From NCBI GenBank assembly GCA_024645085.1, contig JAHEGN010000001.1, positions 1 through 64,000 of the forward strand: a stretch of 64,000 nucleotides of DNA. Reading direction: 5' to 3'. How positions within the stretch are numbered: the stretch's first letter is position 1; each line of letters starts with the position of its first letter. Of the stretch, positions 20,581 to 49,415 are shown piece by piece. A program made the translations under genes and the position numbers. The notes beneath the pieces are model-generated. The model was not told the origin of the DNA. It did not search any database and worked only from the letters and a program-made list of their open reading frames with translations. This DNA comes from Rhodobiaceae bacterium. Lineage in GTDB: Bacteria; Pseudomonadota; Alphaproteobacteria; RS24.

Positions 20581-22023
20581 CTATTGGTCGCGCTGCGCGA
20601 TAAATAAATTGTGAAAATCAGCATAAACGCCGGTTTTGGATTTGTCAGGTGCAAAATATGCCGCAGGCTGATAGCCAGCCGCCGCTGCTTGGGCTAAATC
20701 GGCAAAGGCGCCATCTGCGGTCATTGCCAAAAGGGCGGTGGCGAAAGAACAATCCGTCTGCTGTCCGCGTGCAATTTCGACATCCATCATATCAGCCAGC
20801 ATTTGTCCCCAAAACGTATCTTGCGCGCCACCACCCAGCAAATGCAAGCGGCTGGGTTTGCTGCCAATTTTTGCTGTCATGTCGTGAAAAATCTCGGTCA
20901 ATGCGTGGCCAATGCCTTCATAGGCGGCGCGAGCAATATCGGCTCGTTTGGTGCCACGGCTGAGGCCGCATAGGCTGGCTGTGCGGCTGGCATCCCAAAG
21001 CGGTGCGCGTTCGCCGTTAAGATAGGGGTAAAACACCACCCCATTGCTGCCGATTGGGGCGCTTTGAGCCGCGGTTTGCATATCTTGCAAATTCATATCT
21101 GATAAATAAAGCTGACGCACCCAATGCAAGGCGCCCATGCAATTATTCATACCGGCCGCATGATAATGCGTATTTGGCAAAACATGCGGATAGAGCGAGA
21201 CCGGCGGGTGGGGCTTGGTCGCCGTGTCACCAAAGGCCAGCACCCCAGCAGATGCCAGTTTGAGGCTTGCTGTGCCAGCCGCTAGCGGGCCACAACACAG
21301 CCATTCGACACTGGTATCAATCGCCCCTTGATAAACCGGCGTGCCGGCTTTTAGGCCGGTTAGCTGGGCGGCGGTTTCACTGACCTGGCCAGCGACCGAC
21401 AGCATATCTGCCAGTGGCGGCATATGCTGGGCGCTGAGACCAGCATAGGCCAGCAAATCTTCGTGCCATGTGGTGCTGTGATAATCGGCCAGCAGGGCAC
21501 CGACTGCCTCGCTGGCGTCGGTTTGCCAATCGCCGGTCAATTGGCCGCGCAACCAGTCTTTGGCAAAGCTGATGCGGTGGCATTTTTGCATAATTTCCGG
21601 TTGGTGTTTTTGCAGCCAGATAAGTTGCGGCAAGCTCCATGTCGGATTGGGGCGGTTGCGCGTGATGGCTTCAATATTTTGGGCCTGCAAAAAAGCGGCT
21701 TCTGCATGGGCGCGCTGGTCGCTCCACATAATGGCTGGGCGCAAAACAGCGCCATCGGCCCCCTGTAGCACGGCAATATGTGCCCCACCGGAAAAGCCAA
21801 TGGCTTTGATTTGTAAAAAAATGTTTTGCTGGGTCTGCTTTAGGTTTTCCAGCACTTCGCATAAGGCGGAAAGCCAATCAGCCGGATTTTGCTCAACCTG
21901 ACCGGCTTGCGGATAGGCGCTGGCAATCGGTGCGCTGGCACTGGCTAATTGCCGTGCCTGCGCGTCAACCAGACTGGCTTTCAGGCTGCTGGCGCCAAGG
22001 TCAATGCCGAGAAAGTAACTCAT
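20581..22023 (-). CDS. xylB: FGGY-family carbohydrate kinase, xylulokinase-like
   Basis: 480 aa, right length for xylulokinase. N-terminal phosphate-1 motif FLGIDLGASSLKASLVD, GFSGGAHIAVL, the conserved MWSDQRAHAEA, and the C-terminal adenosine loop LHLLGGGAQDTFWGQMLADM. It would phosphorylate D-xylulose or a similar pentulose with ATP. No xylose isomerase or sugar transporter lies beside it, so the sugar is uncertain. The start is preceded by an inverted repeat (22034-22050) and, further up, by a short promoter-ORF-terminator unit that may act as its leader. Confidence 0.85.
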   Translation of the reverse strand: MSYFLGIDLGASSLKASLVDAQARQLASASAPIASAYPQAGQVEQNPADWLSALCEVLENLKQTQQNIFLQIKAIGFSGGAHIAVLQGADGAVLRPAIMWSDQRAHAEAAFLQAQNIEAITRNRPNPTWSLPQLIWLQKHQPEIMQKCHRISFAKDWLRGQLTGDWQTDASEAVGALLADYHSTTWHEDLLAYAGLSAQHMPPLADMLSVAGQVSETAAQLTGLKAGTPVYQGAIDTSVEWLCCGPLAAGTASLKLASAGVLAFGDTATKPHPPVSLYPHVLPNTHYHAAGMNNCMGALHWVRQLYLSDMNLQDMQTAAQSAPIGSNGVVFYPYLNGERAPLWDASRTASLCGLSRGTKRADIARAAYEGIGHALTEIFHDMTAKIGSKPSRLHLLGGGAQDTFWGQMLADMMDVEIARGQQTDCSFATALLAMTADGAFADLAQAAAAGYQPAAYFAPDKSKTGVYADFHNLFIAQRDQ

Positions 22024-22033
22024 CAGGGTTTAT

Positions 22034-22050
22034 ACCCCCGAATAGGGGGT
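22034..22050. repeat. Inverted repeat upstream of the pentulose kinase
   Basis: ACCCCC-gaata-GGGGGT, a perfect six-base-pair hairpin with a five-base loop ending ten bases before the kinase ATG on the minus strand. It could shape the 5' end of the mRNA or serve as an operator half-site pair. No T-tract follows, so it is not a terminator. Confidence 0.5.
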
Positions 22051-22079: not shown

Positions 22080-22110
22080 AAAAATAAGGGCGCTCGCAAT
22101 GCGAGCGCCC
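22080..22110 (-). terminator. Rho-independent terminator of the short leader gene
   Basis: On the minus strand GGGCGCTCGC-ATT-GCGAGCGCCC forms a ten-base-pair perfect stem, followed by TTATTTTT. It lies 24 bases after the stop codon of the 30-codon ORF and 57 bases before the kinase start, so it either ends a free-standing small transcript or attenuates transcription into the kinase. Confidence 0.85.
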
Positions 22111-22134
22111 CGTGATTGGATTCAAGGAATCCGT

Positions 22135-22227
22135 CTATTTTTGCACACCGACCGGACGTAGGGGTTGTTCCACGGCCATATTCAGTCGCAATATGGGATA
22201 CCTCAAATTAGACCTTTCACTAGACAA
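22135..22227 (-). CDS. Putative 30-aa protein or leader peptide, TTG start
   Basis: A 30-codon ORF beginning at TTG, seven bases after GGAGG in GAAAGGAGGTGATCC (22243-22229), which is complementary to essentially the whole 3' tail of 16S rRNA. The peptide starts MSSERSNLRYPILRL, is Arg- and Pro-containing, has no membrane segment, and ends PVGVQK. A promoter-like pair lies just upstream and a strong terminator just downstream, making a transcript of about 175 bases. I do not recognise the peptide. Alternatives are a translated attenuator for the kinase or a non-coding RNA carrying a strong ribosome-binding sequence. Confidence 0.55.
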   Translation of the reverse strand: MSSERSNLRYPILRLNMAVEQPLRPVGVQK

Positions 22228-22263
22228 TGGATCACCTCCTTTCGTTTGTTAAACACGAATCAG

Positions 22264-22292
22264 ATTCTAAGCTGTTTTGATTCAGCGGCCAA
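22264..22292 (-). promoter_or_regulatory. Sigma-70-like promoter of the short leader gene
   Basis: Read on the minus strand, TTGGCC (-35; 22292-22287), a 17-base spacer and TAGAAT (-10; 22269-22264). The spacing is ideal and the -10 has five of six consensus bases. Start of transcription would fall near 22257, about 14 bases before the extended Shine-Dalgarno sequence. Confidence 0.6.
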
Positions 22293-22349
22293 AAGGTTTA
22301 TGCTGGCGCCAGAGCATCGGCCAAATATGGGCCAGATTTGGGAGAGACT

Positions 22350-22997
22350 ATGTTACGTTATCAAATTATTCCTGTGACCCCGTTCCAGCAGAATTGCACC
22401 GTGTTTTGGAATGAAGAGACGATGAAAGGGGCGATTGTTGACCCCGGCGGCGATTTGGCTTTGCTGAATAAATTCATTGATGAAAACAATATTGAGATTG
22501 AAAAAATATTGGTCACTCATGGTCATCTCGACCATGCTGGCAGCGTTGCCGAAATGGCGACACAGCGCGGTGTGCCGATTATTGGCCCGCATAAAGAAGA
22601 TAAGTTTTGGATCGATGGCATGCCCGCCGCCGCCCAGCAATATGGCTTTCCCGAAGCGCTGGCTTTTGAGCCCGATCAATGGCTGGAAAATGGCGATAAG
22701 GTTGAGGCCGCTGGTGTCAGCTTTGACGTGGTGCATTGCCCGGGTCACACGCCGGGTCATGTGGTGTTTGTGCAGCCGGAAGATAAAGTCGCCATGGTCG
22801 GTGATGTTATTTTCAAAGGCTCCATCGGCCGCACGGATTTTCCCAAGGGCGATTATCAGCAGTTAATTTCATCAATTACCGACCGGCTGTTCAGCCTTGA
22901 TTTGGATATCACCTTTATTCCCGGCCATGGGCCAACTTCGACATTGGGGTTTGAAAAACAAACCAATCCATTCGTCTCTGATACAGCGCTGGGTTAA
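22350..22997 (+). CDS. Metallo-beta-lactamase-fold hydrolase, glyoxalase II-like
   Basis: 215 aa. The two-metal motif is H57-G-H59-L-D61-H62 in VTHGHLDHAGS, followed by HCPGHTPGHVVF and the metal-bridging Asp in MVGDVIFKGSIGRTDFP, ending with FIPGHGPTSTLG. The size and GRTDFP fit the YcbL/GloB-like thiolesterase group, which hydrolyses glutathione thioesters or related substrates. ATG 22350 follows GGGAG; an in-frame ATG four codons earlier has no binding site. The HIT gene follows after four bases. Confidence 0.88.
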   Translation: MLRYQIIPVTPFQQNCTVFWNEETMKGAIVDPGGDLALLNKFIDENNIEIEKILVTHGHLDHAGSVAEMATQRGVPIIGPHKEDKFWIDGMPAAAQQYGFPEALAFEPDQWLENGDKVEAAGVSFDVVHCPGHTPGHVVFVQPEDKVAMVGDVIFKGSIGRTDFPKGDYQQLISSITDRLFSLDLDITFIPGHGPTSTLGFEKQTNPFVSDTALG

Positions 22998-49086: not shown

Positions 49087-49109
49087 CACCAAAGCAGGGC
49101 ACGGCTACC

Positions 49110-49284
49110 ACTATTGAGCATTTCAGGTGCCCCGCGAGGGGGTAATAGGGAACGCAGTAGGGCTTCGGCCTAGTCTGCGGCTGCACCCGCAACTGTTAGC
49201 GGCGAGCAAACTGTCATAGTCCACTCCATTTTGGGGGAAGGCGACAGGGCGCATTGACCCGCAAGCCAGGAAACCTGCCTGATT
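49110..49284 (+). ncRNA. Cobalamin riboswitch
   Basis: All landmark blocks of the AdoCbl aptamer occur in order: AGGTGCCCCGCGAGGGGGTAA, GGGAACGCAGT, GCGGCTGCACCCGCAACTGT (the ACCCGCaACTGT core), GGGGAAGGCGACAGG, and the B12 box GCAAGCCAGGAAACCTGCC (49261-49279). It sits upstream of btuB with about 130 bases of expression platform before the ATG at 49416. With B12 bound it is expected to repress btuB and the genes behind it. Confidence 0.97.
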
Positions 49285-49415
49285 TGGTCGCTCTTTCGCG
49301 CAGGCGGGATGAACTGCACGAGGCGGATTGGCTCTTTCGAGTTCCGTTACAGACGACAATTTTGAACCTGCTCTGTTGGCTTGGCCAGCAGTGCATAATT
49401 TCGTTTGGAGCTAAA

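Follow-up and report, generated by a model that had tools for sequence, protein, structure and literature searches.

The locus described here lies on the minus strand of a 64,000-nt stretch of a Rhodobiaceae bacterium genome (assembly GCA_024645085.1, contig JAHEGN010000001.1, positions 1 to 64,000; hereafter the window), where a promoter, a maximal Shine-Dalgarno (SD) sequence, a 30-codon TTG-started ORF, and a terminator follow one another from 22292 to 22080, an order that is kept in relatives. An earlier, sequence-only reading had placed these four parts in order within 213 bases, and all four were located. The promoter (22264-22292) comprises a −35 box TTGGCC (22292-22287), a 17-nt spacer, and a −10 box TAGAAT (22269-22264), and setting the 5′ end from the −10 box gives a predicted RNA of ~175 nt (22080-22257), which for the window copy folds with a z of −3.1. 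The translation initiation region is a conserved 5′ block, AACAAACGAAAGGAGGTGATCCATTGTCT (22222-22250; 0 matches for a reversed-pattern control), within which GAAAGGAGGTGATCCA (22228-22243) is a 16-nt complement to the 16S rRNA 3′ tail, and the spacing from GGAGG to the start codon is 7 nt. The ORF, MSSERSNLRYPILRLNMAVEQPLRPVGVQK (22135-22227), runs from the TTG at 22227 to a TAG stop at 22137-22135, with start and openness conserved, and holds the 5′ strand of a helix that we call P1 (GUGAAAGG, codons 3-6, 22213-22220) as well as a mimic of the 16S tail (UGGAACAACCCCU, cf. UGGAUCACCUCCU in 16S; 22160-22172), which is weakened in the window genus by one A-C mismatch. Downstream of the stop codon come a hairpin (GGATTCCTTGAATCC, 22118-22132) that is conserved in the alignment of the PS1 family (i.e., the family of the window organism), the 3′ strand of P1 (UCAC, 22112-22115), and directly after it the intrinsic terminator (GGGCGCTCGC-ATT-GCGAGCGCCC-TTATTTTT, 22080-22110), whose 10-bp stem (22110-22101 with 22097-22088) is followed by the T-run TTATTTTT. 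Covariation in this terminator stem had been named earlier as a sign to look for, and compensatory stem changes are seen in the PS1-family alignment. By eye in the same alignment, the CCUU loop of the post-stop hairpin could pair with a UUUGAGG within the ORF of PS1-family copies.

The unit is flanked downstream by an FGGY kinase, xylulokinase-like (20581-22023, minus strand, ATG at 22023), and on its other side by a divergent gene for a metallo-beta-lactamase-fold hydrolase, GloB-like (22338-22997, plus strand). Flanking-gene clustering, which covered 68 loci, placed the kinase downstream of the unit, on its strand, in every PS1-family copy with the downstream side present, as would suit kinase control by a translated leader or attenuator, one of the two roles first proposed for the unit. 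However, the kinase has a −10 box of its own (TATAAA, 22029-22034, minus strand, 11 nt 5′ of the ATG) that lies outside the unit, and in 18 of 18 PS1-family copies TATAA(A/G/C) or TATGAT stands at a fixed 11-12 nt before the ATG with no SD in between, so the kinase mRNA is probably leaderless with its own promoter. Outside the PS1 family, no kinase adjoins the unit and the next gene is convergent, ArfB-like or other; from its sequence, we take the convergent gene of other lineages to be a XerC-like recombinase. The ORF also has no regulatory codon run, on which we agree with the earlier reading. In view of the conserved −10 box of the kinase and the unrelated neighbours in other lineages, the unit is a small gene in its own right and not a kinase leader, a role that we now regard as very improbable; its description as self-contained stands, given the different neighbours and its own promoter pattern.

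An ArfB-like gene (GGQ, ribosome rescue) lies downstream of the unit in L072, L080, and L087 and upstream, on the opposite strand, in L029, while L107 has a tmRNA about 1.2 kb from the unit; this ArfB/tmRNA proximity is possibly chance. A functional link to arfB, which is downstream in a few Rhodobacterales copies, was considered and rejected as inconsistent across lineages.

Taken alone, the promoter-like matches (5 observed vs 3.7 expected in the region) and the terminator-like matches (7 observed vs 5.6 expected) are near chance. The unit as a whole is beyond chance, since AGGAGGTGATC has a single occurrence in the entire 1.7-Mb assembly, the 181-nt unit matches relatives with E-values down to 1e-78, and the order of start, ORF, and terminator is repeated in dozens of divergent copies. 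The promoter, read earlier as sigma-70-like, is in turn supported by clusters at fixed distances from the SD in 53 divergent copies (TTG at −49 to −53, TANNNT at −26 to −30), and of the PS1-family copies, the 15 examined all have TANNNT in the same position.

The entire single-stranded tail of 16S rRNA 3′ of helix 45 is GAUCACCUCCUUUC. The 16S gene of the host seems to be absent from the assembly, as the search for AGGAGGTGATC would otherwise have hit its 3′ end, and for this reason the 3′ end of Sinorhizobium (S. meliloti) 16S, GGCUGGAUCACCUCCUUUCU (PMC6943124), was used for complementarity. With that 3′ end, which is not the host's own, GAAAGGAGGTGATCCA forms a 16-bp duplex of −29.2 kcal/mol, bearing out the near-full complementarity to the 16S tail that had been read from the letters. 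That the 5′ box can pair with this single-stranded 3′ tail over its whole length is new here; a literature search on the SD box itself returned nothing relevant. A complement of this length and strength, unique in the genome, could belong to a trans-acting decoy that captures 30S subunits or rRNA precursors by their 16S 3′ tail, with the ORF secondary. Such a decoy would require a very high RNA copy number, and it leaves unexplained both the invariant NTG start with its conserved short ORF and the site-masking internal mimic, so that we consider it unlikely.

Conservation of the ORF was evaluated across divergent copies. All 73 of 73 distinct copies start with ATG, GTG, or TTG and none with CTG, and frame 0 runs on without a stop for at least 11 more codons in each of the 53 sequence-diverged representatives and for at least 14 codons in 52 of them, where shuffled sequences would lead one to expect about 28-32; the alternative frames reach 14 codons in 26 and 40 of the 53. 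Further copies, found by a covariance model and not by the pattern, have a start codon in 20 of 20 cases and the 7-nt spacing in 18 of 20, in keeping with the seven-base spacing noticed at the outset in the window copy. Lengths range from 14 to 35 codons across copies, apart from L039, at 56 codons apparently a different gene. The earlier reading had looked to relatives for conservation of the frame and of the order of parts, and both are kept. With start codon and open frame retained across divergent copies, as is expected of a translated ORF, this one is probably translated.

The encoded peptide, on the other hand, appears free to change. Within the PS1 family, pN/pS was 0.64 in frame and 0.82 and 0.53 out of frame, and this comparison of the three frames gave no frame-specific amino-acid constraint, contrary to the coding substitution bias that the sequence-only reading had suggested checking. 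Between families the peptides are unrelated and have little in common beyond an initial Met-Ser, while some families have similar peptides among their own members (SHC...TW..AS). Pfam and NCBIfam gave no match for the ORF peptide, and a peptide search reached convincingly into two genera only. An mRNA that simply encodes a functional microprotein (18-35 residues) would account for the conservation of start codon, open frame, and ideal SD spacing, and for the likeness of peptides within some families, but the lack of frame-specific constraint, the unrelated sequences between families, the absence of a domain match, and a common motif that falls in three frames all weigh against it, and we judge it improbable. 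Of the microprotein proposed earlier, conservation of the ORF as an ORF was upheld and constraint on its amino acids was not. Judged from these alignments, what is conserved is the presence of a short ORF and not its peptide, an observation that is likewise new here.

The common motif emerged from structure prediction. RNAalifold on 12 PS1-family copies paired the start region, GGAGGU..UCCAU, with an ORF-internal (G/A)UGGAGCAACCUUC, a motif that resembles the 16S tail itself (UGGAUCACCUCC). Relative to dinucleotide shuffles, the start region of 62 copies pairs preferentially with the ORF interior (mean z −1.4, t=−10.9), and in the same copies there was no preferred pairing with the 45 nt after the stop codon (mean z +0.1). 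Among the 52 copies with long enough ORFs, the SD/start region and the mimic covary (z −5.4, with 0 of 5000 permutations as good; partners CCAG/CUGG, CCAA/UUGG, CCUG/CAGG, CCCG/CGGG, and CCGA/UCGG), a significance that is overstated, as is that of P1 below, because the copies are related and permutation statistics overstate their independence. The mimic sits at codon 21-22, yet in three reading frames depending on lineage, which explains the freedom of the peptide. The ORF thus carries, as newly observed here, a 16S-tail mimic able to pair with the SD/start region. In Caulobacter-type copies this role is filled by CUGGAUC..GCCUC, and Rhodobacterales copies have no mimic in the ORF and a post-stop CACCUCC complementary to the SD. 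Copies L119, L120, L121, L066, L080, L088, L092, and L094 are of this Rhodobacterales type, with an 18-codon ORF and a post-stop CACCUCC or CGCCUCC anti-SD. When the 5′ part and ORF were folded alone, the SD lay in the mimic helix for the window copy and L078 and outside it for the Caulobacter-type L048, and in the full-length minimum-energy fold of the window RNA the SD was mostly free. Both internal helices are weaker than average in the window copy, and in its genus the mimic has its A-C mismatch and P1 is short.

A second internal pairing, also new here, joins early codons to the segment just before the terminator. This helix P1 (codons 3-6 with the pre-terminator segment) reached z 8.4 with 0 of 2000 permutations as good, and 17 copies taken as a set of their own repeated the result (z 4.6, 0 of 5000), values to be read with the same relatedness of copies in mind. 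Its partners covary as CAUUGUC/GACAAUG, CAUUGCC/GGCAAUG, AUGAGAUU/AAUCUCAU, CGAGAUC/GAUCUCG, and CAUGAAU/AUUCAUG; the window copy pairs only GUGA/UCAC plus GG/CC, the helix being strong across the wider set of copies. The SD-mimic helix crosses P1, so the two would either make up a pseudoknot or be mutually exclusive. A GUGAU/AUCAC pairing between the SD and the pre-terminator segment was rejected as too short and inconsistent, and P1 and the mimic took its place.

At the Rfam gathering cut-off, neither the window nor 12 relatives gave a match at the place of the unit. In E-value mode on a short stretch, RF01867 (the Caulobacter crescentus sRNA CC2171) matched at 22087-22251 with 36.2 bits (E 2e-6), aligning over its full length (model positions 1-159 of 159), conserved 5′ block included, a score below the RF01867 gathering cut-off of 75 bits. 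Found in this mode only, the kinship could not have been known to the author of the sequence-only reading. Seven divergent relatives (L064, L107, L048, L058, L112, L105, and L113) score 77-91 bits, above the cut-off, and bear the same 5′ block and an ORF, and Caulobacter vibrioides, in the control set, was positive for RF01867. CC2171 reportedly goes back to Landt et al. 2008, and no paper found in our literature search gave it a function. The window unit resembles CC2171 in its 5′ block CAACAAUCGAAAGGAGGUGAUCCAGUGUCU, similar length, and strong terminator, and may share, in the short form given above, the pairing of early codons with the pre-terminator segment, but differs from it in the ORF interior, while RF01867 is treated by Rfam as non-coding, with a structure that lacks the SD-mimic helix. 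One covarying pair was added to RF01867 in Rfam 15 (PMC11701678). Given 36.2 bits against a cut-off of 75, the window unit is, by sequence homology, a divergent homologue of CC2171 and is not filed as an RF01867 member. Elsewhere in the window, a cobalamin riboswitch (RF00174, 105.7 bits) lies at 49108-49296 on the plus strand.

The whole unit was found in the three genomes of the genus and most genomes of the family, and only its 5′ part in other families. The 5′ pattern gave about one match per genome in 33 of 263 genera, and the reversed pattern gave none. Matches to the RF01867 model (E≤0.001) occurred in 26 of 115 sampled alphaproteobacterial genomes (about a quarter), and the 19 matches in a sample of 120 spanning the phylum were all alphaproteobacterial. 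Two genomes (G039 and G272) hold two RF01867-like copies each.

Kinship with a catalogued RNA raises the possibility of an ordinary trans-acting base-pairing sRNA in which the ORF is incidental, consistent with the Rfam class (sRNA) and with the terminator hairpin and U-tail. A Mesorhizobium homologue, MH_s33, was likewise predicted as an sRNA and was among the candidates compared with RNA-seq in a study that detected products for 34 of 35 non-riboswitch candidates (PMC5596092). In Caulobacter, ncRNA regions were generally untranslated, and two earlier-predicted ncRNAs, whose names are absent from the text, were translated (Schrader et al. 2014, PMC4117421). The most conserved stretch of the unit, however, is a translation start and not a free seed, and start codon and openness are under selection, which makes this reading unlikely. 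Other short RNAs offer partial parallels. The peTrpL/rnTrpL of S. meliloti (PMC10117765) and Pos19 of Rhodobacter (PMC5036791) are likewise short, terminated alphaproteobacterial RNAs with a short ORF, but those are marked by attenuation, a stress regulon, or a defined peptide, whereas neither context nor peptide is conserved for the window unit. Extended SD motifs of Staphylococcus aureus (PMC13009471) also pair beyond the core and go with short ORFs and non-ATG starts, but they are genome-wide and add a few pairs, whereas the window unit is a single locus that matches the whole tail and carries a tail mimic. The SmelA075 and SmelA099 sRNA families (PMC3927594) are alphaproteobacterial RNAs that also use SD/anti-SD pairing; these show anti-SD CCUCCUCCC loops, in contrast to the conserved 5′ end of the window unit, which is the SD itself.

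Taking together what the computation established, i.e., the homology, the stand-alone unit, the conserved ORF without peptide constraint, and both internal pairings, we think that the best explanation, in which we have about even confidence, is a stand-alone CC2171-like sRNA gene acting as a ribosome-occupancy switch: the internal mimic would vie with the 16S tail for a single start site. We infer that the RNA would be transcribed and translated in its host, with the act of translating the ORF mattering and the peptide not. Against this reading stand the mimic mismatch and short P1 of the window genus, the crossing of the two helices, the mostly free SD of the full-length fold, the Rhodobacterales copies without an ORF mimic, and the general lack of translation reported for Caulobacter ncRNA regions. 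A ribosome that loads early, during transcription, or is already translating would hold the mimic helix and P1 open, and an RNA missing its ribosome would close, the mimic masking the SD and start codon. The RNA might then report ribosome availability or initiation efficiency through an exposed or hidden 3′ segment and SD, and its output would perhaps be the pre-terminator strand or simply the stability of the RNA.

More tentatively, and with somewhat less than even confidence, we propose a class-wide alphaproteobacterial riboregulator that would sense ribosome availability by means of a perfect complement to the 16S tail and an in-built version of the tail, with translation as the signal and the peptide irrelevant. 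If true, this would be a natural RNA sensor for ribosome supply that about a quarter of the alphaproteobacterial genomes sampled (26/115) possess. CC2171 has been catalogued as non-coding, and what its relatives have in common is an ORF, conserved and probably translated, with a freely changing peptide, and an internal 16S-tail mimic, a warning that conservation of an ORF need not imply conservation of a peptide.
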